DNA from: Glycocaulis abyssi
GTDB lineage: Bacteria > Pseudomonadota > Alphaproteobacteria > Caulobacterales > Maricaulaceae
Assembly: GCF_041429775.1 (NCBI RefSeq)
Contig: NZ_CP163421.1
Span: 1,116,001-1,180,000 of the forward strand
Reading direction: 5' to 3'
DNA length: 64,000 nt
Of the stretch, positions 9,986-22,374 are shown piece after piece. A program made the position numbers and the translations under genes. The notes below the pieces were generated by a model. That model was not told the origin of the DNA and ran no database searches. It saw nothing but the letters and a program-made list of their open reading frames with translations. How positions within the stretch are numbered: position 1 is the stretch's first letter; each line of letters opens with the position of its first letter.

Positions 9986-10615
9986 TCACGTCTTTTCGTG
10001 GCGGCGCTTCAATTCCTCCGCGACATCACTGAGGGATAGTCCGCGCGCTTTTAAAAGGACAATGAGGTGGAAAATCAGGTCCGCCGCCTCGCCCGTCAGG
10101 GCGGAGTTATCCTCGCAAACGCCGGCGAGCGCCGTTTCGACGCCCTCCTCCCCCACTTTTTGCGCTACCTTGTTGATTCCCTTGGCCAATAGCCGGGCGG
10201 TATAGCTTTCCTCCGGCGAACTATCCGCCCTTCTATCCACGATCGCGGATAATTCGCCGATGAAAGCCAGCGCCGGGCCGGGATAATCACCAAAGCAGGA
10301 GCGCGTGCCGAGGTGACAGGTCGGGCCTTCGGGCAGAGCCTGCACCAGCAGCGCGTCACGGTCGCAATCAGCGGCGAGGCCAGCCAGGCGCAACACATCG
10401 CCGGACGTCTCGCCCTTGGTCCAGAGCCGGTTTTTCGAGCGCGACCAGAAGGTTACAAGGCCCTTCTCCTGCGTTGCGGCAAGCGCCTGCGCATTCATAT
10501 AGCCCAGCATCAGCACCTCGCCGGTAGCGGCATGCTGGACGATGGCAGGCACCAGCCCGCCGCCCTTTTCAAAGTCGATTTGCTCCGCAGAAAGCGGGGA
10601 GAGTTCATCGCTCAT
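9986..10615 (-). CDS. hisIE: Bifunctional phosphoribosyl-AMP cyclohydrolase / phosphoribosyl-ATP pyrophosphatase
   Basis: Catalyses steps 2 and 3 of histidine synthesis. It has 209 residues: a HisI domain (about 1-115) with [26 protein letters not shown] and the metal-binding CDRDA and CHLGTRSCF segments, then a HisE domain (about 125-209) with VGEEGVETA and [13 protein letters not shown]. Many alphaproteobacteria carry hisI and hisE separately, so the fusion is worth noting. It is the last gene of the his operon; its start overlaps the hisF stop by 4 bp. Confidence 0.96.
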
Positions 10616-11379
10616 GGGCGCACCTCGATGCCGGATTGTGCGAGATAGATTTTCAGATCGGGGATGGAAATGACACTCCTGTGGAAGACGCTGGCCGCTA
10701 ACGCCCCGTCAACATTGGCCTTTTTGAACACGGCCTCGAAATGGTCCATCGCGCCCGCCCCGCCAGAGGCGATCAGCGGCACCGAACACACCTCACGGGC
10801 GGCAATTAGCTGTTCAATATCATAGCCTTGGCGCACGCCGTCCTGGTCCATGCAGTTCAGCACGATCTCGCCCGCCCCGCGCTCTATCACCTCTTTTATC
10901 CATGACAGCGTATCGCGTTCGCTGGTCAGGGTCCGGTCCGGGTCGCCAGTATATTGGTGGAGGCGATATATCCCCCCAATTTTGCGGCTATCCATGCCGA
11001 CAACCACACACTGGCTGCCAAATTCTTCTGCCAGCGCGTTGATCAGATTGGGGTTTTCCAGCGCGGGCGTGTTGATGGATATCTTGTCTGCCCCCGCATG
11101 CAGGCGCGCACGGGCCGCCGCTACTGACCGGATGCCACCGGCCACGCAAAACGGTATGTCGATCACCTGCGCCACGCGGCCCACCCAGAGGGGCTCCACC
11201 TCGCGTCCTTCTGGGCTGGCGGAGATGTCATAGAAGACCAGCTCGTCGGCCCCCTGCTCTGCGTAAAGCCTTGCCAGTTCTACGATATCGCCGACGATCT
11301 CGTGGTCTTTAAAGCGCACGCCCTTGACCACCTTGCCGTCGCGCACATCGAGGCAGGGAATGATGCGCCGGGCTAGCAT
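10612..11379 (-). CDS. hisF: Imidazole glycerol phosphate synthase, cyclase subunit
   Basis: A 255-residue TIM barrel that uses ammonia from HisH to form IGP and AICAR. It begins [20 protein letters not shown] with the catalytic aspartate of the CLDV segment, and has the second catalytic aspartate in [13 protein letters not shown]. Phosphate-binding loops AGGIRS and ASGGAG are present. It overlaps hisA by 7 bp and hisIE by 4 bp, consistent with tight translational coupling. Confidence 0.97.
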
Positions 11380-12095
11380 GCCAGCGCCTCTTCCAGCGTG
11401 AAACGGCCCTCAAAGAGCGCGCGGCCAATGATAATTCCGCCCATTTTCATGGCCTTGGCCTGCCGGATATCCTCCAGCGTGGCGACGCCGCCTGAAGCCT
11501 GCCAGGCGATCTCCGGCCGGGAGGCCACAAGGCTCTGATAAAGCGCGGTATTTATACCCTCCAGCATGCCGTCCCGCCCGGTATCTGTCGCCAGCGCGTG
11601 GCGCAGCCCGTGGCGTTGATAGGCTTGCAAGAGCTCCCCCAGCGTTATCCCCGCTTCCTCGGTCCAGCCCTTGACCACCGGGACGGGCCTATCCCCCTTC
11701 ATGCGCACATCGAAGGCGGCGGCAATGGCCTGCGCCCCATAGCGGACAAGCCAGCCCGAAACTTTTCCCGGATCAGTGACCGCGAGCGAGCCGATCACCA
11801 CCCGTGATGCGCCGGAATCCAGCAATGATTCAATATCTTCGCCGGTGCGCACCCCGCCGCCCGTCTGCACCTTGATGCCGGTCGCGGCGACGCTCTCGAC
11901 GAGGGATAATTGCCGCCTCTTGCCGTCGCGCGCGCCGGAAAGATCGACCAGGTGCAGCCATTCTGCCCCCGCTTCGAGATAGCCGCGGGCCACGGCGGCG
12001 GGGTCATCCCCATAGTCGGTGACGGCGGCGAAATCCCCCTTTGCCAGGCGCACTACCCGCCCCTCGAGGACATCTATGGCTGGATAGATTTTCAC
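11373..12095 (-). CDS. hisA: ProFAR isomerase
   Basis: A 240-residue TIM barrel that isomerises ProFAR to PRFAR. It opens [17 protein letters not shown] with the catalytic aspartate (AIDV), and has [11 protein letters not shown] carrying the second acidic residue plus phosphate loops TGGGVRT and ASGGVAT. The hisH stop is 3 bp upstream and hisF overlaps by 7 bp. Confidence 0.97.
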
Positions 12096-12098
12096 GCC

Positions 12099-12707
12099 TT
12101 AACCCTTGATAAAATTGGACAATATACGCGCCCCGACAGCGCCGGAGCGTTCGGGGTGGAACTGGCAGCCGGCAATGTGTCCATGGCGGACCATCGCACT
12201 TATCCGCGTTCCGTAAGTGGTGGTGGCGAGAGTTGATGCGCCTTCGGGCACGTAGAAGCCGTGGACAAAATAGACATGGGCGCCCTCCTCTATCCCGGTG
12301 AGAAGCGGGTCTGAACCGGGCTGAAAGCTGAGGGTATTCCAGCCCATGTGCGGCCACGGACCCGCATCAGACGGAGCCAGACGCTCCACCCGGCCGGGGA
12401 TAAGCCCCAGCAGCGAAACGGGAACACCTGCCCCGCTATCCTCGTCACTTTCCCCGAATAAAAGCTGCATACCCAGGCACACACCCAGCAGCGGACGGGT
12501 ATCGGATCGCAGCGCGTCCGCCCAGCCGGAGCGTTCCAGCGCCCGCATTGCGGGGCCAGCCGCGCCCACACCCGGCAGGATAAGTTTCGTCGCGCTGGCC
12601 GCCTCTCCCGGTGTCGCCGCAAGGACAGGTTCGACGCCCAGCCGGTTCAAGGCGTAGCGCACGCTAGCGATATTGGCGGTCGAGGTATCGATGAGCGCGA
12701 GGGTCAT
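12099..12707 (-). CDS. hisH: Imidazole glycerol phosphate synthase, glutamine amidotransferase subunit
   Basis: A 202-residue class I glutaminase that feeds ammonia to HisF. It has the nucleophile cysteine in GVCLGMQLLFG and the His/Glu pair in CQFHPERSG. The ATG at 12707 gives MTLALIDTSTANIASV, the expected HisH opening. It is the first gene after the about 400 bp repeat-filled gap that splits the his operon. Confidence 0.96.
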   Translation of the reverse strand: MTLALIDTSTANIASVRYALNRLGVEPVLAATPGEAASATKLILPGVGAAGPAMRALERSGWADALRSDTRPLLGVCLGMQLLFGESDEDSGAGVPVSLLGLIPGRVERLAPSDAGPWPHMGWNTLSFQPGSDPLLTGIEEGAHVYFVHGFYVPEGASTLATTTYGTRISAMVRHGHIAGCQFHPERSGAVGARILSNFIKG

Positions 12708-12718
12708 TCCATCACCTC

Positions 12719-12822
12719 TGTCATCCTCCGGCCGCATAGCGGTCCGGGGGAGCCATGCCTACCAAGTGCATGTAATCCAGAGCTTTCAGGCATGGGTGGC
12801 CCGGACAAGCCGGGCCATGACA
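12719..12822. repeat. Convergent pair of GTCAT...CCATGCCT palindromes (family D)
   Basis: Left unit starts TGTCATCCTCCGGCC, contains a hairpin, and ends CCATGCCT. Right unit starts AGGCATGG, holds the hairpin GGCCCGGACAAGCCGGGCC, and ends ATGACA. The two face each other across about 27 bp. Together with the next repeat block they fill the gap between hisB and hisH. Confidence 0.75.
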
Positions 12823-12850
12823 ACGGTATATTGCCGTTCAAACTCCCTTG

Positions 12851-13068
12851 CGTTTTCCCGGCGAAAGCCGGGATCCAGCTTTTAGCTCCGCAACGCATCC
12901 GGGTTGCGATGTTCCGCGAAAAGTCGCGGGCGCGCGTTCGCGCTCTTCGGACGGCGTAACGCCGTCCGCAAGGCCGACCGGCCGCCGGGCACTTTTGCCC
13001 GAAGCGACGCACGGATGTGCGGAGCATCAGCAAACGAAACTGGGCACCGGCTTTCGCCGGTGAAACGC
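12851..13068. repeat. Composite repeat: family A pair flanking a multi-hairpin element (family B)
   Basis: Outer units (12851-12879 and 13040-13068) are inverted copies of the CGTTTTCCC...CCAG / CTGGG...GAAACG type with hairpins CCGGCGAAAGCCGG and CCGGCTTTCGCCGG. Between them, 12886-13029 is a chain of short palindromes: GCAACGCATCCGGGTTGC, CGCGAAAAGTCGCG, GCGCGCGTTCGCGC, a stem around GGCGTAACGCC, and CGGGCACTTTTGCCCG. It ends at GCGGAGCATCA. No coding potential seen. Confidence 0.75.
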
Positions 13069-13104
13069 GCGGTGAAAGCATGGACAAACCAGCCCCGCGC
13101 CCCA

Positions 13105-14313
13105 TCACAACACCCCCTTTGTGGAGGGGATAGAGGCGCCCTCAATCCGGATGGCCTGGCGCAGCGCGCGGCCAAACGCCTTGAAGCACGCCTCGATCAT
13201 GTGGTGGGGGTTATCCCCGCTCACCTCGACATGGATGGCGGCTTTGAGCGTCTCGGAGATGGAGCGGAAAGCGTGCACGCACATATCCACCGGGTAATCC
13301 CCCACCCGCTCGCCGGGAATCTCGCCGTCGAAACGCAGGTAAGGACGCCCCGACAGATCGATCCAGACGCCCGCGCGCGTCTCGTCCATGGGCAGGGCAA
13401 AGCCGAAACGGGCAATGCCGGCCTTGTCGCCGAGCGCGACACCGATCGCCTCGCCCAGCGCCAGGCACACATCCTCGATCGTGTGGTGGGTATCGACTTC
13501 GATATCGCCCTCGCACACCACATCGAGGCGGAAGCCGCCATGGCGCGAGACCTGCTCCAGCATGTGATCGAAGAAGTGGACGCCGGTTTCAAACCGCCCG
13601 CCCTCACCGTCGAGATCGATGAAAAGCGCGATGTCGGTTTCCTTCGTGGTGCGGCGGATGGAGGCCGTGCGCGGGGCTTTGAGACCACCCAGATAGGCGG
13701 CCAATGCCTTCGCTTCGGCGAGCGACAACACCCAGGCGGTGAAGCCCTCCGGCGTTTCCTCCAGCTTCAGCCCCAAAGCGGCGAGGCGCTGCGCCAGAGC
13801 GGCCTTATCGGTGCCAGAAAGGGTGAGTTTATCCCCCTCTCTATCCACCTGCGCCCCGGTCAGCTCACCCATTCGCGCAGCGCTGACACACATTAGCGAA
13901 ACATACTGATCCCACTGCGCTTTCGCCGACGCGATTCCGGCTGGCGAGAGGCGGGAGGGTATTTCAGGGCCGAAAATGGGGTATGGCAGGCCCGATTCCG
14001 GGGTGAGTTTCGCCGCCAGCGCCGGATTTCGCGTATCTATCACCACATTATCGCTGATCTCGCGGCCCAGCCGGTAGAGCGTAACGCCTTCTTTCGACGG
14101 GCTTTCCAGCGCCGCCAGCCCTTCAGGCAAACGGCTGGCGTCGAAGGGTGTATCCATTGCTGTGAGCGCTTGCTGCGCCGCAGCAGCATTCGGAGCGAGG
14201 ACGAGCGCTTCAGGGTCACACCCCAGAATATCCGACAGCCGGGCAAGGAGGGCCGTGCGGGATAGTTCTGCCCTTATCCCCGCCGTTCTAGAGAGGTCTA
14301 TAATGGCGCTCAT
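13105..14313 (-). CDS. hisB: Imidazoleglycerol-phosphate dehydratase with N-terminal HisC-like remnant
   Basis: A 402-residue protein. Residues 217-402 are a complete HisB (IGP dehydratase) with the Mn-binding motifs FFDHMLEQVSRHG, DTHHTIEDV, and GDNPHHMIEA, ending PSTKGVL. Residues 1-216 are not the HAD phosphatase that precedes HisB in enterobacteria (no DxD motif). Short stretches resemble histidinol-phosphate aminotransferase: ARLSDILGCDPEALVLAPNA near the start, SPSKEGVTLYRLG (K74, R81) like the PLP-lysine loop, and RLAALGLKLEETPEGF near the end. About half of a real HisC would be missing. The ATG at 14313 follows the hisD stop by 1 nt. HisB function is secure; origin of the N-domain is inference. 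Confidence 0.85.
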   Translation of the reverse strand: MSAIIDLSRTAGIRAELSRTALLARLSDILGCDPEALVLAPNAAAAQQALTAMDTPFDASRLPEGLAALESPSKEGVTLYRLGREISDNVVIDTRNPALAAKLTPESGLPYPIFGPEIPSRLSPAGIASAKAQWDQYVSLMCVSAARMGELTGAQVDREGDKLTLSGTDKAALAQRLAALGLKLEETPEGFTAWVLSLAEAKALAAYLGGLKAPRTASIRRTTKETDIALFIDLDGEGGRFETGVHFFDHMLEQVSRHGGFRLDVVCEGDIEVDTHHTIEDVCLALGEAIGVALGDKAGIARFGFALPMDETRAGVWIDLSGRPYLRFDGEIPGERVGDYPVDMCVHAFRSISETLKAAIHVEVSGDNPHHMIEACFKAFGRALRQAIRIEGASIPSTKGVL

Positions 14314-14314
14314 G

Positions 14315-15628
14315 TCAGAGCCTCCCCTCTTCCGCCTTCTCGCGCCTCGCCGCCATGGCGAGCCGGTGCGCATCGAGCCCTTCAAGGGCGGCGAGCCGCT
14401 CGACCGTGGGCGCGATGGCGGCAGCGCCCCTGGCCTCGAAACGCAAAACGCTGGTCGTCTTCTGGAACATCTCGACACTGACCCCGCCATAGGCCCTCGC
14501 CGCACCGGCGGTCGGCAGGGAATGGTTCGGCCCGGCGGCGTAGTCGCCAGCAGCTTCGGGCGTCCAGGGGCCGAGGAATATGGACCCGGCATGGCGGATC
14601 TCACCGCAGAGCGCTTCCGGATCGGATGTCTGGATGATGAGGTGCTCGCCCGCATAGGCATTCGCCGCCGCCACCGCGTCCGCTTCGTTCCGTACGAGGA
14701 ATGCCTTCGAGACCTGAAGAGCCGCCGCCGCAATGTCACGCCTCGGCAAACCCTCAAGGCGGGCTTTCAGCGCAGCTTCCACCAGGTCGACGAACCGCTC
14801 CGAGAAAGCGATGAGGAGAACTTGAGCGAGGCGGTCATGCTCTGCCTGGGCCAGAAGATCGAGGGCGACAAAGTCCGGGTCCGCGCTGTCATCGGCGATG
14901 ATGATGACCTCGGAAGGACCGGCGGGCAGGTCCGCCGCCGCGCCGCCAGGGCTCTGCGCGAGCAGCGCCTTCGCCGCCGCGACATAGGCATTGCCGGGCC
15001 CGAAAATGCGGTCGGCGCGGGGCAGGCCCGCAATGCCGAGGCCCAGCGCGGCAACCCCGTGCGCGCCGCCAAGCGCATACACCTCATCAAGGCCAAGCAG
15101 GCCCGCCGCGCCAAGAATGGTGCGGTCCGGCCCGCCCTCCCCGACTGGCGGGGTGAGGATTGCGATCCGGCTGACGCCCGCGATTTGCGCCGGGATGGCG
15201 AGCATGAGCAAAGTTGAGACAAGCGGCGCGGTGCCGGCCGGCACGTAAAGCCCGGCCACTTCCAGCGGCGTGACGCGCCGCTCCGCCACCCCGCCGGGCC
15301 ATGTTTCGAGGCAATAGGATTTATATCCTTGGCATGCGTGATAGCGGCGCACGGCATCGGCGGCGGCGAGGATGGCTTTTGCGTCCTCCGGGTCCAGCGC
15401 GTCCGCCGCGGCCTTCAATTCGCTCACCGGCACGCGGAAGTCTTCGGGCGCATAGCCATCGAGCGATTGCGCATAGCGGCGCACGGCGGTTTCGCCTTCG
15501 GCGCGCACTTCGGAGAGGATTTTCGCGGCGACCTCGAACGCATCCGAGCTATCGCTCGGCCGGGCCATCAGGCTCACGCGTTCATCGGCAGACAATTCCG
15601 CCCAGACATATCGGGTGAGATACGCCAT
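14315..15628 (-). CDS. hisD: Histidinol dehydrogenase
   Basis: NAD- and zinc-dependent enzyme for the last two oxidations from histidinol to histidine; 437 residues, normal length. Visible family blocks include YVPAGTAPLVSTLLMLAIPA, IFGPGNAYVAAAK, DLPAGPSEVIIIADDSADP, the catalytic AEHD (LAQAEHDRLAQ), and GPNHSLPTAGAARAYGG. It sits 3 bp after hisG and 1 nt before the hisB start. Confidence 0.97.
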   Translation of the reverse strand: MAYLTRYVWAELSADERVSLMARPSDSSDAFEVAAKILSEVRAEGETAVRRYAQSLDGYAPEDFRVPVSELKAAADALDPEDAKAILAAADAVRRYHACQGYKSYCLETWPGGVAERRVTPLEVAGLYVPAGTAPLVSTLLMLAIPAQIAGVSRIAILTPPVGEGGPDRTILGAAGLLGLDEVYALGGAHGVAALGLGIAGLPRADRIFGPGNAYVAAAKALLAQSPGGAAADLPAGPSEVIIIADDSADPDFVALDLLAQAEHDRLAQVLLIAFSERFVDLVEAALKARLEGLPRRDIAAAALQVSKAFLVRNEADAVAAANAYAGEHLIIQTSDPEALCGEIRHAGSIFLGPWTPEAAGDYAAGPNHSLPTAGAARAYGGVSVEMFQKTTSVLRFEARGAAAIAPTVERLAALEGLDAHRLAMAARREKAEEGRL

Positions 15629-15631
15629 CGC

Positions 15632-16516
15632 TTACGCCATCATCTTTTCGATCGGCAATACGAGGATGGAGCGCCCGCCCGCGGCCTTGATCTGCTCCAG
15701 CGTCGACCAGAACACTTCTTCGGTGCACACCGCATGGATGGCGACCACATCGTCACGGCCGACCACGGGCGCGACGGTTGGCGCATCGGCGCCGGGCAGC
15801 ACGGCGCGTATCTCGTCCAGCCTGTCTTTCGGGGCATTGAGCAGGATGTATTTGGTCTGGCGCGAGGCGATCACGCCCTTGAAGCGCTCCACCAGCAGGT
15901 CCAGCGTCGCGCCCCCGCCATTGAGGGCTTCCGGGTTGGCGATCAGCACCGCCTCGCTCTCCAGCACGGTCTCGAACGCGGCCAGCCCATTGGCTTCCAG
16001 CGTAGCGCCGGTGGAAACGAGGTCACAGATCGCATCAGCAATCTTCATGCGCGGCGCGACCTCGACAGAGCCGCCCATCTCCACGATCTCTGCCATGATG
16101 CCGCGCTCTTGCAGGAATTTCGCCGTCAAAGCGGGATAGGAGGTGGCGATGGCGCGGCCCTCAAGGTCTGCCACCGACTGGACCGGCCCTTCCAGAGGCG
16201 CGGCGAGTTTCAGCGTGCATCGCGCAAAGCCCAGCCGCTGGACGATCTCGAGGCCCGCCACGCGGGGCGAGCGCGCCGCCGCCTCGGCCAGCACATTCTC
16301 GCCGACAATGCCGCACCCGCACGAGCCCGATGCGACGAAGCTCGGGATATCATCATCGCGGATCAGCATCAGATCGAGCGGGACATTCTCTGCCCGGCGC
16401 ATCAGCGCGTCGCGCGCATAGGCGAGCTTCACGCCCGATTGCTTCAGGAGGTCAAACCCGCCTTCGGCGAGCCGGCCGCTCTTCTGCACGGCCAGGGTCA
16501 GGCGTCCGGCGCTCAT
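15632..16516 (-). CDS. hisG: ATP phosphoribosyltransferase
   Basis: First committed enzyme of histidine synthesis, normally feedback-inhibited by histidine. It has 294 residues; the sequence opens LTLAVQKSGRLAEGGFDLL and carries the PRPP-binding DLVSTGATLEANGL loop. The remaining about 80 residues after this loop, ending VLPIEKMMA, form the C-terminal regulatory domain of long-form HisG, so no HisZ partner is needed. The start overlaps the stop of the upstream yerC-like gene by 4 bp (ATGA). Confidence 0.95.
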   Translation of the reverse strand: MSAGRLTLAVQKSGRLAEGGFDLLKQSGVKLAYARDALMRRAENVPLDLMLIRDDDIPSFVASGSCGCGIVGENVLAEAAARSPRVAGLEIVQRLGFARCTLKLAAPLEGPVQSVADLEGRAIATSYPALTAKFLQERGIMAEIVEMGGSVEVAPRMKIADAICDLVSTGATLEANGLAAFETVLESEAVLIANPEALNGGGATLDLLVERFKGVIASRQTKYILLNAPKDRLDEIRAVLPGADAPTVAPVVGRDDVVAIHAVCTEEVFWSTLEQIKAAGGRSILVLPIEKMMA

Positions 16517-16821
16517 CGGGTTTTTGCCTTCAGCCGGTCCAGCACCAGCCTGTAGCCCTGGTGCGGCTCCTGCGCGAGGAAGCGCGCGACGCGCGTGACC
16601 GTGGTGGTGGAAACGCCGGTCTCGGCGCTGATCTCCCGGTAGGAGCGCCCCGCTTCGAGCAGCTGCGCCACGCGCCAGCGCTCGGCCAGCGCGTCACGCT
16701 CGCCGGGCGTCGTCAGATCGGTGAGGAAGCGCGCCATCTCGCCTGCATCCTTAGCGGCCAGCAGCGCCTCGCACAGCGCGTTGAAATCACGGGTCCTTGT
16801 CTCCCTGTCGAGGCGCATCAC
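16513..16821 (-). CDS. yerC: YerC/TrpR-like repressor heading the his operon
   Basis: A 102-residue helical DNA-binding protein of the TrpR-related YerC/YecD family. The helix-turn-helix is clear: ERDALAERWRVAQLLEAGRSYREISAETGVSTTTVTRVARFL split over about residues 40-82. Family members are known or predicted regulators of histidine genes, which fits its place as first gene of this operon, coupled by a 4 bp overlap to hisG. Autoregulation by histidine is inference. Its upstream region runs straight into the seven-copy palindrome array. Confidence 0.85.
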   Translation of the reverse strand: MMRLDRETRTRDFNALCEALLAAKDAGEMARFLTDLTTPGERDALAERWRVAQLLEAGRSYREISAETGVSTTTVTRVARFLAQEPHQGYRLVLDRLKAKTR

Positions 16822-17213
16822 GCCCTCCTTTTCATCTCTTTTTCTGCCGCCGCCATACCGGCTCCCGGCAGATTGCCCTTCCCACGCCCGGCTGGGTCTC
16901 TGCCCGGCCCGTGCCTGACCAGCCGTCCGCCGGGCGGCCCGTCTGGCCCGTCAATACCTATCCACGCCTGTCCACCCACACCGCCGCCCTGCTGAACCGC
17001 CGGGTGACACAGGGCCGGACGTCGCTGGGCCAGACGTCACTGGTACGGACGTCAGAGAGCTGGCCCACACGGAACCAGATGCCACTGGCCCGGACACCTC
17101 ATCCGGCCCTGCCCCGCCGTTCCACAGCACATCGTGACACCTCTATATCGTATTAGCGCGATAACACAATGGACCCTGAGCAGTGGGCGAGAGAGGAGGT
17201 TGGGAGCGTGGCG

Positions 17214-17277
17214 TGTGGGTGTGGGGTGGAGGGGCGGCAGTGGAGGAGGGGCGTGAAGGCGTGGGGTGGAGGGGGGA
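17214..17277 (+). other. G-rich tract with quadruplex potential
   Basis: Within about 60 bp the plus strand has five runs of four or more G (17223-17226, 17231-17234, 17248-17251, 17263-17266, 17271-17276) separated by short T/A/C-containing spacers. That is enough for an intramolecular G-quadruplex. It lies just right of the first palindrome copy in the array. Confidence 0.5.
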
Positions 17278-17702
17278 GTGCAGCGCCCTCCACCTCAGGT
17301 CACCCGCCCGGCCTGTCCCCGTGAAAACGGGCAGCGGGAGAACCAGCTTTCTTGCTTCAGGGCATTGTTATGGATTCTTGATTCCCTGCGTGCCCTGCCA
17401 GTCAATCCATCGTGTTAATACAATGATACGACACCATAAGGCACGGAGAGATGGATGTGGAGGATCGGAGACTGCGCGCACGACATCATCAAACAAGGCG
17501 TGTGGGGGCTGTGGTGCGAGGCGGAGGGGGCGATGGGGCTGGAGGTGTGGGCGTGGAGCCTGGATGGCGATGTGGCGTGGGGTGTGGAAGTAGATGGTCG
17601 AAGAATGAAGGGTGGTGCGGGGTTGTCGAGAGCGTGGGCGTGGTGGGCGAAGGGATGCGCCCAGCCCGTGGCGAAAAGCACCGGAAGAGCAAACCTCTCT
17701 CT

Positions 17703-17743
17703 CGTCATTCCGGAAAGCGCGCCAGCGCTTATCCGGAACCCAG
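17703..17743. repeat. REP-like palindrome (family A) in the array
   Basis: Single unit with flank CGTCATTCCGG, a stem around AAGCGCGCCAGCGCTT, and closing GGAACCCAG. The same stem type recurs at 18604, 41208 and 56895. Confidence 0.75.
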
Positions 17744-18123
17744 ATAACCGTGTGGTGCTCTGCGCCCTGCACCTTCCAGACGCCCCGCCCGCCCGCATCT
17801 CGCCGTTACAGACGCCGCCCCGCCCTGCCCATGCCTTCCCCATTCCCGCCGCGCGGCCCCACCCACGCATCCCGGTTTCCGATACATCTCCCCTGCCTTG
17901 GCTCGCCCATCCAATTCATCGTATTAACACGATGCCACGCGCATCCGACAGATGGGGTGGAGCGAGGCGGATCAGAGACTGCGGGAGGTGAAGGATAGGC
18001 GTGGGTGGGAATGGAAGTGGGGATACGGAGCGGTGGAAGCTCCGGGTGCTCCGGGGAGCGCCCAAGCAACGGCAAAAGCTCTGCCTCTGCAAAGGCATAT
18101 CCGTTCTGCCATTGGCCCAGCCA

Positions 18124-18175
18124 CCGGGGTCCCCCGCCCCGCCTGTCCCCGTGAAAACGGGGAACGGGGGACCCA
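18124..18175. repeat. 52 bp GC-rich repeat (family C)
   Basis: Contains GTCCCCCGCCCCGCCTGTCC, then CCCCGTGAAAACGGGG, then GGGGGACCCA. Near-identical copies are at 32279-32330 and, inverted, 38247-38298; a diverged one is at 57053-57106. The long complementary arms around GTGAAAAC would form a hairpin. Confidence 0.75.
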
Positions 18176-18603
18176 TCGAACATGCAGGGGCCGGAAGCTG
18201 GACCCCGGCTCTGCGGCCGGGGACCCGGTGAGTTGAGCTCGCGAGACGTGAGAGCATGGCGCACGGCCTGTCCCCCGGCCATGACCGCGGGTGGCGCAGT
18301 GCAGAAATCCAGCCGGGTGCCGCTGCGCTCCGCCGGTTCCACACGCCCCGCCCTGCCATAGCTCCCCACCAGTTCCCGGCGCACGGCTTCACCAGCATTT
18401 CCCCCTTCCCACCCCGAACATGGCCTGCCCTATCAATTAATCGTGTTAATACATTGATATGCACTATCCGGCGAAGCTCGGTAGAACGAGGCGGATCAGA
18501 GGCTCCGCGAGGTGGCTGCGGGAGGTGAGGCGGAGTGGGCAGAAATGGCGGGCGGAGTGAGCGCCGGGGTGCGATGCGCCACAAGATGGGGGCTTCCAAC
18601 TTT

Positions 18604-18766
18604 CGTCATTCCACAAAGCGCGTCAGCGCTTATCCGGAACCCAGTCATTCATAAAAAATCTGGGTTCCAGGTCTCGCCATCGGCTCGCCCGGAATGACGA
18701 AAAGAGAAGGCGTGTTCTCCTGCATCGTCATTCCGGCCACAGCAAAGCGGAGAGCCGGAATCCGGA
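18604..18766. repeat. Convergent family A pair plus a third unit
   Basis: CGTCATTCC...GGAACCCAG (18604-18644) faces CTGGGTTCC...GGAATGACG (18660-18700) across an A/T-rich spacer. A third unit with CGTCATTCCGG opens at 18726 and closes near 18766. Stem sequences differ between units while staying self-complementary. Confidence 0.7.
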
Positions 18767-19570
18767 CCATCAGGCACCTTCCGCTGGACCTGCCGCCGCG
18801 CCCGCCCCCCGGGCGACTCACCGCGTTCCGGCGCCCTGCACTTCCCGCACCCTGCCCTTTCCAGACACGCCATCCCACCGGCATCTCCCCTTCCCCGACC
18901 CGCCCCTCAACTCATCATGTTAATACATTGCGACGCGCTATCCGGCATGTCGGGTTGAGTTCGCGGACGAGGGTCTGCGGGCGGGCCTCCGTCTGCCCCA
19001 TGAAAGGCGGCTTCCATGGCGAGCTGTTCCTGAAGAACAGGATGGGTCTCCCGTCAGGGCGGGAGACCTAAGGTATTGATGCATTTTCAAAGGTTCTGCC
19101 AGTATTGCCGTGGAAATCTCTGCCTCAGCTGCCCTGCCCCGCCTGTCCCCGTTTTGACGGGCAATGGGGGCAGCCTTCCCTGTTTGCCTCCGCGCTGCCC
19201 TTCCCTGCCTCACCTAGATTGCCACCGTATTAGCACATTGATACGTCGGTCTAACGCGCAGGAATGGAATGCCGTCGCGGGCGAGGGCAGCAGTAGCCAG
19301 AAAAAGGGAGACGGGGCCCTGGGCGACCCTTCGAGCCAGCCGGACTGACGGCAAGCGGTGAAGCAATAATATGCACGAAGCCAAGCGCCTGAATCCGTTG
19401 CCTGCCCCGCTCCGGTGCCCTTAGCCTTTCCGCCCGCACTTTCGTTATCGTGTTAACACATTGATATGAATGGCATAGCGCGGGACGGGGCGCTGGCTCC
19501 ACCGCGACTGGCAAGACACAGGTCGATATCCGCAATAAGCTCTCCTCAAGGGAGATTTGTGGGGCAGGCG

Positions 19571-20542
19571 ATGACAGAAAATGTACCGGCCAGCAGCGGC
19601 GACTGGTGGAAACGCCCTTGGGTGGCTGTGACCGTCGTTTCAGCGCTTATCTGCATAGCGGCCGTGACCAGTGCGATCACGGCGTACTACGCGGAGAGCC
19701 GCCAGCAAGCTGACCGGGCAGCAGATCAATACCGGGCTTATGCGGAGCGTGTTGTCGCCTGCGACGGCATCGAGTCTCGCGCGGAGCATTACGCCTGTCT
19801 GGTAGAGGCCGTGCAAACGGAACAGCAACGCCTCTACGCGGCAACCAATCTGCGCGCCCAGCAAGACATGTCGACGTGGAGTTTCGCCACACTGTGGATC
19901 AGCCTTGGCCTTCTGATCGTTACGGGTGTGGGTGTTACTTACGTGGCGCTGACACTGGATCAAACCAGGCGCGCCACCAAGGCGGCGGTAAAAGCTGCCG
20001 AAGCAGCGGAGAATACGGTGCTGGAGACCCGGCGCATCGGAGAGGCGCAGGTGCGGGCTTATATCACTGTGAGACACACCAACTCGTTCTCGAAAATAGA
20101 ATCCAATAAAAAACATGTGCTTGTGAAAGAAATTATAAATACGGGATCAACCCCTGCGTATAATGTATCATATGCTGCGTCACTATTTGTCGCAGACGAC
20201 CACTTTTTTCCTGATGAAAATTTCTGGCCCGAACATGATTTCAATTTACACGGCCAAAAAGCATATATAGCCAATGGATCACCGTCATTCGTCGTAGGCG
20301 ATATATTTCTCGAACACAAAATAGCCATGAACATTTATGCAGGGCACTCATCAATTTTTGCTGCATGCAAAATAGAATACTTCGACGCATTTAACCGTTG
20401 TCACACAGCAAACATAATATCAAAGCTTCTTTTTGTCCCGACTGATGAGAAAGATAGCGATGGAAATCCGGTTGTCGAACCAAGAATGGCAGCTCTTCCG
20501 GGTGCCAATACCTACAGCATAGATGTGGACAGCGGCGGCTGA
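19571..20542 (+). CDS. Membrane-anchored protein of unknown function, composition shift inside the gene
   Basis: A 323-residue protein from the ATG at 19571; an in-frame ATG at 19466 abuts the last palindrome copy but the extra residues look non-coding. Two membrane segments (about residues 15-35, WVAVTVVSALICIAAVTSAI, and 100-122, FATLWISLGLLIVTGVGVTYV) flank a charged loop, followed by a helix (TRRATKAAVKAAEAAE) and the block RIGEAQVRAYITV. The following about 130 residues form a likely beta-rich domain. Up to about 20,080 the DNA has normal GC, whereas 20,100-20,220 is only about 35-38% G+C by hand count. I do not recognise a function. Confidence 0.7.
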   Translation: MTENVPASSGDWWKRPWVAVTVVSALICIAAVTSAITAYYAESRQQADRAADQYRAYAERVVACDGIESRAEHYACLVEAVQTEQQRLYAATNLRAQQDMSTWSFATLWISLGLLIVTGVGVTYVALTLDQTRRATKAAVKAAEAAENTVLETRRIGEAQVRAYITVRHTNSFSKIESNKKHVLVKEIINTGSTPAYNVSYAASLFVADDHFFPDENFWPEHDFNLHGQKAYIANGSPSFVVGDIFLEHKIAMNIYAGHSSIFAACKIEYFDAFNRCHTANIISKLLFVPTDEKDSDGNPVVEPRMAALPGANTYSIDVDSGG

Positions 20543-20642
20543 TATCTGCTCGTCACCATGGAGACGCCTGCGCTCACCCCCGGCCCGGCTCTTGCTTACT
20601 CCTTACCCAAAGCCCGCAAGGGCCCAAGAGGGATGTGCCGTG

Positions 20643-21140
20643 ATGAAACAGGTTCTGGCTGCTTTCGCCATGAGTATCGCGTTTTCTGTGCCCGCACTCG
20701 CGCAGAATGCCGGCGAGATTGCGCGCGTGCAGGCGGGCGCTTCGTGCACCGGGTGCAATCTGTTCCAGGCGGATCTGGCCTATCGCAACCTGCCGGGCGT
20801 GGACCTCTCTGGCTCGCGCCTGCGCCAGAGCGATCTGTCGCTCTCCACCATGAACAATGCCCGGCTGGCGCAGACCGATCTGTCCATCGCCAATCTGTTT
20901 GGCGGCCGGTTTACAGGGGTCAGCTTTGCCGGGGCCAATCTGGAGCGCGCCACTCTGGTGGGCGGCTATTTTGGCGGCGCGGATTTTTCCGGCGCCAACC
21001 TCACCGGCGCCAATATTTCCGGCGCGGAGATGGAGCGCGCGCGGGGCCTGACGCAAAGCCAGCTGAACGCCGCCTGCGGCGATGCATCGACGCGCCTGCC
21101 TGCGGGCCTTCGTGTGCCGCCTTGCGCGTCAGGCCGCTAG
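20643..21140 (+). CDS. Secreted pentapeptide-repeat protein
   Basis: 165 residues. A signal peptide (MKQVLAAFAMSIAFSVPALAQ) is followed by a CxxC pair in ASCTGCNLFQADL, then about 15 pentapeptide repeats of the A(D/N)Lxx type (for example VDLSGSRLRQSDLSL, ANLERATL, ANLTGANISGAEM) forming a right-handed beta-helix. The tail GLTQSQLNAACGDASTRLP has further cysteines. AGAGGGA lies about 10 nt before the ATG. The next gene has the same layout, so the two are paralogues. Function unknown; the fold is a protein-binding scaffold in other families. Confidence 0.85.
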   Translation: MKQVLAAFAMSIAFSVPALAQNAGEIARVQAGASCTGCNLFQADLAYRNLPGVDLSGSRLRQSDLSLSTMNNARLAQTDLSIANLFGGRFTGVSFAGANLERATLVGGYFGGADFSGANLTGANISGAEMERARGLTQSQLNAACGDASTRLPAGLRVPPCASGR

Positions 21141-21201
21141 ACATTTCCCATTACTGCAATTTAAGTCGCTCTTGCCTGCGCCGGGGAGTAGGGAAAAGGG
21201 C

Positions 21202-22374
21202 ATGAAATTGCGCAATCTTGCCATTGCTGCGCTTATTCCGCTGACGGCGCTGACCGCGCCGCTCGCTGCGGCGGGCGATCTGGCGGAAAACGCGCAAGCC
21301 ACGCGCACCGAGCGCGACGCGGACCCGCAGCGCCGCCTGGTGATTGGCGGCGAGTGCGCCTCATGCGATTTCAGCGGCTCCAACCTGGCCGGCGCCCATC
21401 TTTATCGCGGCAATTTCGCCAACGCCGATTTTTCCGGCGCGCAATTGCTCGGCGCGCGCTTTGCCAATATGCGCCTTGATGGCGCGGATTTCGCCGATGC
21501 GTCCATGCGCGAGGTGCGCCTGTCGAACGTGACGATGAACGGCGCCAGCCTGGTAGACGCCAACATGACCGATATGCGCGCCCATCAGGTCATGCTGCAG
21601 GGCGCCAATGCCAGCGATGTGCAGATGAACGGGGCGAGCCTGGTGCAGGTCAGCCTGCAAGGGGCCAATCTGCGCGATGCCGACTTCAGCGCGGCCACGA
21701 TACGCTCCGGCGATATGCGCGGCGCCAGCCTGCAGGATGCGCGCCTGACCAATGTGGTGATGCAGCACATCATCATGCACCAGGCAAATCTGCGCGGCGC
21801 CGCGATGGAAGGCGCCTTCCTCGATCATGTGGACCTGACCGGGGCGACGTTGCGCGGCGCCAATCTTACCGGCGCGCGCTTCCGCGCGGTCAACCTGACC
21901 GGCGTGGACCTGTCACGCACGCTGGGGCTGACTGCGCAATTGCTGGAAAAGGCGTGCGGTGACGAAACCACGCGCCTGCCTGAAGACATGAATATTACGC
22001 TGGCGGCGTGTGACAACGAAATCCCCGGCGCCCGTCCGGTCGATGAGCGCGCCTTTATCGCCGAGGCCGAGGCGCGCCGTCTGGCACAGCTGGAAGCCGC
22101 CCAGGAAGCCTTCGCCGATGCGCTGGCCAGCGTGCAGTCGCGCGCCATGGCCTCTGGCGGGCTTGAGCGTGAGGCGATGGAGACAGCGCGTGAAGCCTTG
22201 CGCGAAGCCGCCCGTGCGCAGGCAGAGCTGGCCCGCGCACGCGCGCATTCGGGCTGGCAGTTCGACATGCGGCGCTCCGAGCTGGGCGAGCCCATGCAGT
22301 TCTGGCTGGACGGCGCGACACCGCCCCAGCCGCCCACGCCCCCTGCCCGCGCGGACCGGCCCGACCGGCGGTAG
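21202..22374 (+). CDS. Secreted pentapeptide-repeat protein, larger paralogue
   Basis: 390 residues from the ATG at 21202 (AAAAGGG upstream). Signal peptide MKLRNLAIAALIPLTALTAP, then a CxxC pair in GGECASCDFSGSNL, then roughly 35 pentapeptide repeats (residues about 55-240) ending with GLTAQLLEKACGDETTRLP, the same closing motif as the upstream paralogue. After that comes an Ala/Glu/Arg-rich helical segment (about 285-345) and a Pro-rich tail. Its stop codon directly abuts the aspS stop on the other strand. Confidence 0.85.
   Translation: MKLRNLAIAALIPLTALTAPLAAAGDLAENAQATRTERDADPQRRLVIGGECASCDFSGSNLAGAHLYRGNFANADFSGAQLLGARFANMRLDGADFADASMREVRLSNVTMNGASLVDANMTDMRAHQVMLQGANASDVQMNGASLVQVSLQGANLRDADFSAATIRSGDMRGASLQDARLTNVVMQHIIMHQANLRGAAMEGAFLDHVDLTGATLRGANLTGARFRAVNLTGVDLSRTLGLTAQLLEKACGDETTRLPEDMNITLAACDNEIPGARPVDERAFIAEAEARRLAQLEAAQEAFADALASVQSRAMASGGLEREAMETAREALREAARAQAELARARAHSGWQFDMRRSELGEPMQFWLDGATPPQPPTPPARADRPDRR

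Follow-up and report, generated by a model that had tools for sequence, protein, structure and literature searches.

A Multi-Site Array of Predicted HisR Operators Upstream of the Histidine Biosynthesis Genes of Glycocaulis abyssi

Main Finding

The stretch of the Glycocaulis abyssi chromosome analyzed here (64,000 nucleotides, hereafter referred to as the window) contains seven related palindromes distributed over 2.3 kb (17146-19463) upstream of the histidine biosynthesis (his) cluster. Sequence, location, phylogeny and confinement to one locus together identify the repeated motif as the predicted operator of HisR (YerC), the repressor encoded by the first gene of this cluster. One copy lies within the putative promoter of hisR; as to the other six, we lean towards the reading that they are duplicated operators, at least five of which would bind HisR and act as a local sink for the repressor. 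The features of the locus are compiled in Table 1.

Table 1. Predicted operators, putative promoter elements and genes of the hisR locus (positions in the window).
Feature	Position	Strand	Basis and remarks
his cluster downstream of hisR (hisG, hisD, hisB, hisH, hisA, hisF, hisIE)	9986..16516	minus	NCBIfam matches
hisR (yerC), TrpR-family repressor, first gene of the his cluster	16513..16821	minus	Pfam PF01371, E 4.7e-24
Putative -10 of the hisR promoter, TATAGA	17142..17147	minus	16 bp spacer; read from sequence
Primary HisR operator (predicted), putative hisR-his promoter	17146..17171		GTATTA-N6-TAACAC, 20-bp class; matrix score 38.0; also present upstream of hisR in relatives
Putative -35 of the hisR promoter, TTGTGT	17164..17169	minus	overlapped by operator; read from sequence
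Extra HisR operator 1 (predicted)	17408..17433		matrix score 23.3
Extra HisR operator 2 (predicted), near-perfect palindrome	17917..17942		matrix score 15.9
Extra HisR operator 3 (predicted)	18439..18464		matrix score 13.1
Extra HisR operator 4 (predicted), probably degenerate	18913..18938		one mismatch to the motif of the initial annotation; best nearby matrix score 4.2
Extra HisR operator 5 (predicted)	19223..19248		matrix score 21.9
Extra HisR operator 6 (predicted)	19446..19471		matrix score 18.3; about 100 bp before the likely start (19571) of an orphan gene

Occurrence and Arrangement of the Copies

All seven copies were found at the positions reported in an initial annotation of this DNA. 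A search of the window with ATCGTRTTAAYACRWTG, allowing up to 3 mismatches, gave 14 strand-matches, every one of them between 17146 and 19463; dinucleotide shuffles of the window (n = 100) averaged 0.25 and never exceeded 2. With the same tolerance the 3.05 Mb genome (two contigs) contained 18 strand-matches, 14 of them at the array locus and the remaining four with 3 mismatches each, and the reversed control of ATCGTRTTAAYACRWTG matched 7 times genome-wide. On the two points on which the initial annotation had let its reading depend, placement and conservation, the outcome is divided: the motif is not scattered at random through the genome, and the closest relative has only part of the array. 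The copy at 17917, described in that annotation as a near-perfect 18 bp palindrome, is identical to its reverse complement at 16 of the 18 positions.

The six extra copies are located 587-2625 bp upstream of hisR. The distances between successive copies are 262, 509, 522, 474, 310 and 223 bp, and because of these spacings they do not form the regular tandem of about 500 bp units that had been suggested; moreover, two of the blocks shared by the units are dispersed repeats. No helical phase common to the sites emerged from these spacings.

A 20-bp palindrome with N6-spaced half-sites, GTRTTA-N6-TRAYAC, is present exactly in the copies at 17146, 17408 and 19223 and with 1 mismatch in those at 17917, 18439 and 19446; the 18913 copy was absent among the matches with up to 1 mismatch in the whole genome. 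These amounted to 19 strand-hits, of which 9, including all 4 exact ones, fall at the array (reversed control, 21 hits).

HisR and Its Putative Promoter

The product of hisR scored above the cut-off of the NCBIfam model TIGR02531 (YerC/YecD; 69 bits, cut-off 42.2) and under that of TIGR01321 (TrpR; 42.9, cut-off 67.25), as corresponds to a member of the TrpR superfamily distinct from TrpR. Its best sequence matches in the PDB were 3frw, 3kor and 3g1c, the last of which is named HisR in the sections of PMC9413887 considered here. hisR overlaps hisG by 4 bp and appears to form one operon with the his cluster, in which hisB corresponds to the C-terminal part of ORF 13105-14757.

The 17146 copy sits 325 bp upstream of hisR. 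Read as in Table 1, it would cover the promoter spacer between the putative -35 and -10, as expected of a repressor site. In many relatives a TATATC or similar hexamer occupies the place matching the hisR -10, and a generic promoter scan did not recover the putative -35. At the six extra copies, the place of the -10 shows 2-3 of 6 matches to TATAAT versus 4 of 6 at 17146.

Identity of the Operator

A symmetric matrix was built from 26 distinct operators located upstream of yerC, none of them from Glycocaulis. They were collected from 36 loci outside the genus of the window by retaining sites with at most 2 mismatches to GTRTTA-N6-TRAYAC, with ten loci dropped (three repeats of an included genome and seven without such a site); the training operators score 23.4-39.9, values that are not independent of the pattern because the filter enforces the half-sites. 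Eleven sites of the window reach a score of at least 4, all of them inside the array, and the maximum in 400 kb sampled across the chromosome was 4.5. The 17146 copy falls within the range of the training operators. Five of the extra copies score 13-23, below nearly all of them (23-40), and an overlapping register of the 19446 copy scores 14.8. The 18913 copy is probably degenerate.

In relatives the core upstream of yerC reads GTRTTAGCRCGCTAAYAC in most of the 26 operators collected, and the 17146 copy is the same element on the opposite strand. It is kept just upstream of hisR in several genera and is taken as the ancestral operator, lying within the putative promoter of hisR and the his genes. 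The initial annotation had put forward YerC as the binding protein, a prediction favored by the finding that other genera keep this operator immediately before yerC.

The extra copies are readable as the same operator, with a left half like GTRTTA followed by an N6-spaced half-site, which is TGATAC or TGATAT in 4 of the 6 and corresponds to the ATA by which the initial annotation extended its motif. A strong inner half-site, TAAYAC, is present in 5 of the 6 and creates the visible palindrome, which corresponds to the primary operator with exactly 8 bp taken out; the same inner half-site occurs in GTATTAACACGTTAATAC, the operator upstream of yerC at locus L110.

Among the six extra copies, mean pairwise identity amounts to 80% in the 18-bp core, 43% in the 20 bp just left and 60% in the 6 bp just right of it, and 25-31% further out (20-40 bp left and 6-40 bp right). 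Consensus-breaking changes affect 5 of 84 non-degenerate core positions (P 5e-6 for a drift of 25% per copy and 0.005 for 16%), a statistic inflated by the fact that copies and consensus were both chosen by their cores. Altogether, these comparisons provide moderate evidence that the cores were maintained in G. abyssi. Of the two readings originally offered, a binding hub made of operators and a decayed tandem duplication with selected cores, each seems partly right, as the copies resemble locally duplicated operators with cores better conserved than their flanks.

Composition and Content of the Gap

The initial annotation also reported that base skew flips at the motif. All seven copies show a positive GC-skew flip, which ranges from 0.33 to 1.05 with a mean of 0.66, versus a window background with mean 0, sd 0.19 and a 99% point of 0.47; among 20000 sets of seven positions picked at random from anywhere in the window, array included, none reached the observed mean. 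The flip is real for the copies as a set and weak at three of them (17408, 19223 and 19446), which individually fall below the 99% point with values of 0.40, 0.42 and 0.33. The 100 bp to the left of the copies have a C+T content of 0.54-0.72. A GGATCRGAG-type block (family D11) is present 3' of the copies at 17408, 17917 and 18439, where it had been noticed before. Like block D4, it occurs in three copies, all with an adjoining core.

When the arms of the window copies were compared with each other, 12 of 42 comparisons exceeded z 2.5 against 100 shuffles, including those of the right arm of the primary operator with the right arms of 17408 and 18439. These similarities suggest that the copies derive from duplication of the hisR promoter region. 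Part of the arm similarity is due to dispersed repeats, as is the case of the strongest left-arm pair (17408 with 19223). One of these repeats, GCCTGTCCCCGTGAAAACGGG, has 17 matches in the genome with up to 3 mismatches and is found in the window at 17298-17345, 18128-18175 and 19128-19175; a second one inside the units, TCATTCCGGAAAGCGCG...CCAG, has six genome matches at the same tolerance. Both may have aided rearrangement of the gap. The palindrome itself was also considered as a mobile repeat or MITE, an idea rejected in view of its confinement to one locus, even though these two other blocks of the units are dispersed.

Multi-copy palindromes associated with skew flips could also represent a chromosome segregation or nucleoid-organizing site, as the initial annotation had proposed. 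We regard this as highly improbable and rejected it, considering that the motif is restricted to one locus, that no array was found in relatives and that the element is of the same type as the hisR operator; in addition, the coarsely sampled GC skew switches sign between 0.76 and 0.91 Mb and not at 1.13 Mb.

None of the 10 ORFs tested in the array block reached the Pfam cut-off (one sub-threshold hit, E 0.063), in agreement with the earlier view that it holds no credible gene, and a hidden gene was discarded as an explanation. A structured RNA was likewise discarded, the Rfam search of the array giving a single hit to a human lncRNA family (E 0.08), below the gathering score.

Each copy might instead be the operator of a promoter of its own, serving small RNAs or the gene at 19571, so that HisR would control several short transcripts. 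The position of copy 19446 relative to this gene, the composition flips, which resemble divergent purine-rich transcripts, and the region's only promoter-like hit, on the plus strand at 17395-17424 and overlapping copy 17408, are compatible with such an arrangement. However, the hit is at the level of shuffles (mean 0.6, sd 0.9), no terminator-like site was found in the array region versus 2.1 in shuffles, no notable Rfam match was obtained and the -10 place of the hisR promoter is lost in the copies, and we therefore give this explanation little credit.

The orphan ORF at 19571-20542 had no PHROG match, the longer frame starting at 19466 had no match in Pfam or NCBIfam, and tblastn detected no counterpart of the ORF at the examined loci of Glycocaulis alkaliphilus and Glycocaulis albus. 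It is followed by two adjacent genes encoding pentapeptide-repeat proteins of 205 and 430 aa (20523-22374), which adjoin aspS; the pair occupies the corresponding position in both G. alkaliphilus and G. albus.

Relatives and History of the Array

In a genome scan covering 80 yerC loci, GTRTTA-N6-TAAYAC was found with up to 1 mismatch within 260 bp upstream of yerC in 18, labeled Glycocaulis, Oceanicaulis, Marinicauda, Woodsholea, Asticcacaulis, Algimonas or MAGs, four of them from the genus of the window. Of the rest, one locus showed 2 mismatches, one 3 and 60, mostly from Brevundimonas, at least 4.

Several Brevundimonas yerC upstream regions, together with one record labeled Bordetella, have a different conserved palindrome, CATTGTTACAGCATAATGGAACRYRC or similar, just upstream of yerC (L119, L132, L134, L136, L144, L146, L147 and L155-L160), which may be a lineage-shifted HisR operator. 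Three MAGs (L093, L094 and L098) have two HisR-type operators separated by 23 bp upstream of yerC, a tighter arrangement than the doublet of Glycocaulis described below.

The motif of the initial annotation, with up to 1 mismatch, matched 9 of 137 genomes of the family, G. abyssi and G. alkaliphilus included, and more than one site was found only in G. abyssi. The presence of yerC was checked at 11 loci with motif hits (the eight from other genomes in the 137-genome search plus three more). The motif lies upstream of yerC in G023 and G081, which belong to one genus, and in G121, from another, at 22, 24 and 82 bp, respectively, from the first aligned base of yerC; in four other motif-bearing genomes, no yerC was found within the 1.8-3 kb examined around the match. 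When 97 loci were scanned with the matrix (score of at least 8), several of them representing the same genome twice and several of about 3 kb or less, three sites were reached only at the G. alkaliphilus locus.

The gap between yerC and the pentapeptide-repeat genes measures about 3.2 kb in G. alkaliphilus and contains one intact and one decayed extra copy. It also carries, beside dispersed repeats, a transposase-like gene with an rve (integrase core) domain (L071:5907-6983). The units of G. alkaliphilus are rearranged. The one that corresponds to 18439 shows 74% overall identity but has lost the left half of its core, and a left flank related to that of 17917 also leads to an intact site. The intact copy may be chimeric. 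With one counterpart decayed within well-matched flanks and the other copy possibly chimeric, the array is not strictly maintained. In G. albus two strong operators are found 225 bp apart, and the gap contains three long ORFs, of which one encodes a LuxR-type DNA-binding domain and the other two have no Pfam match. The remaining three genomes of the genus have a single operator each. The yerC-pentapeptide gap looks like an insertion hot spot.

These observations bear on the main rival of the sink interpretation, according to which the six distal copies are functionless and slowly decaying by-products of duplication and recombination affecting the hisR promoter region among dispersed repeats, some of which HisR may bind without consequence. 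The gap is rich in repeats and rearranging (G. alkaliphilus has a transposase gene there, G. albus has other genes), two dispersed repeats lie within the units, one counterpart has decayed in G. alkaliphilus and the array, at up to 1 mismatch, is present in one of 137 genomes of the family. Conversely, the cores are far better conserved than the flanks and show few consensus-breaking changes, with the bias that the copies were chosen by core, and all three copies of both D4 and D11 retain the adjoining core. Drift without function is thus a serious candidate, though one we would not bet on.

A Proposed Local Sink for HisR

The reading we prefer, that of a local sink, can be outlined as follows. 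When histidine is plentiful, HisR bound at 17146 would obstruct RNA polymerase, repressing both hisR and the his genes. Six further copies would have arisen through local duplication of the hisR promoter region, an origin that would account for their shared C/T-rich and G/A-rich arms; they would have lost the promoter -10 and kept the HisR-binding core. At least five of them could then bind HisR and constitute a local sink or reservoir beside the sole promoter that HisR seems to control here, lowering the free repressor and in this way raising basal his expression and blunting autoregulation. Binding, histidine as the ligand, origin by duplication and the sink effect are all points that we infer.

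In a toy steady-state model, six extra sites raised his expression 1.1 to 1.8-fold, the factor varying with how abundant the repressor is and how strong the sites are, and the modeled effect would be small unless HisR is scarce. In Escherichia coli, engineered decoys raise the expression of an autorepressed gene and of its target (PMC7505660, as far as its text is considered here). Only tentatively can it be hypothesized that the array is a naturally evolved sink beside a single target promoter that sets repressor availability and noise in histidine synthesis.

The same layout, in which all seven sites lie to one side of the only target promoter, could instead serve tighter repression, the distal operators aiding the promoter operator by means of DNA bridging or cooperative assembly of HisR. 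The extra half-sites at 4 and 8 bp steps, reminiscent of the trp operator, would fit the binding of two or more dimers to one site. The spacings of 223-522 bp, which share no helical phase, speak against it and led us to reject looping by helical phase. TrpR-family dimers are not known to bridge distant sites, a further point against this explanation; we consider it unlikely.

Comparison With Known Systems

HisR and its promoter-proximal site were already known. In Ruminococcus gnavus, HisR binds its operator better with histidine, and proteobacterial HisR was predicted to act from a site immediately before hisR and to control almost exclusively the hisR-his operon (PMC9413887, in the sections considered). 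G. abyssi shares with the proteobacterial systems of that study the repressor family, the position of hisR as first gene of the his operon and the site just upstream of hisR, and its 20-bp palindrome class is close to the published alpha/gamma consensus; whereas the published site lies immediately upstream of hisR, six more are added here reaching about 2.6 kb upstream (PMC9413887, same sections). The motif search, as described in that paper for Firmicutes, spanned -350 to +50 of gene starts, a range from which the distal copies would have escaped. The initial annotation knew of no described element of this form, a statement that does not hold for the site, given the HisR operators in PMC9413887, and may hold for the layout: no published description of a multi-site HisR array was found in the open-licence literature, supplementary site lists excluded. 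HisR sites usually number one or two before the his genes, and the seven-site layout may be new.

For HisR regulation in the Caulobacterales, these findings supply a consensus of the operator and propose how the promoter is built, and they indicate that operators can multiply locally while still fitting the binding consensus. If the distal copies are inert, the array would record the birth and decay of operators between sister species.

Tandem TrpR dimers bind trp operator DNA, in which the palindromes overlap by an 8 bp step. The TrpR operators (TGTAcTnGTnnACnAgTACA, as printed in PMC9413887) and those of G. abyssi both have N6-spaced half-sites as well as inner half-sites forming overlapping palindromes 8 bp apart. 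The G. abyssi sites differ in their half-sites (GTRTTA/TAAYAC), in their his target and in the presence of several sites located hundreds of bp apart.

Titration of a regulator by chromosomal loci is exemplified by datA of E. coli, which binds and titrates DnaA. Both datA and the array are clusters of sites able to hold a regulator, but DnaA controls replication and titration by the G. abyssi array is only proposed.

As in synthetic decoy arrays, spare operators would here compete with the promoter that drives the repressor gene; the engineered ones are LacI sites on plasmids, at tens to hundreds per cell, and those of G. abyssi are six natural chromosomal sites (PMC7505660, in the parts of its text used here). 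If the distal sites bind HisR, the locus would offer a natural case for asking whether spare operators located in cis tune an autorepressor, a subject approached with engineered constructs in PMC7505660. Should the sink interpretation be true, the operator array would represent a chromosomal, cis-located counterpart of the synthetic decoy arrays.
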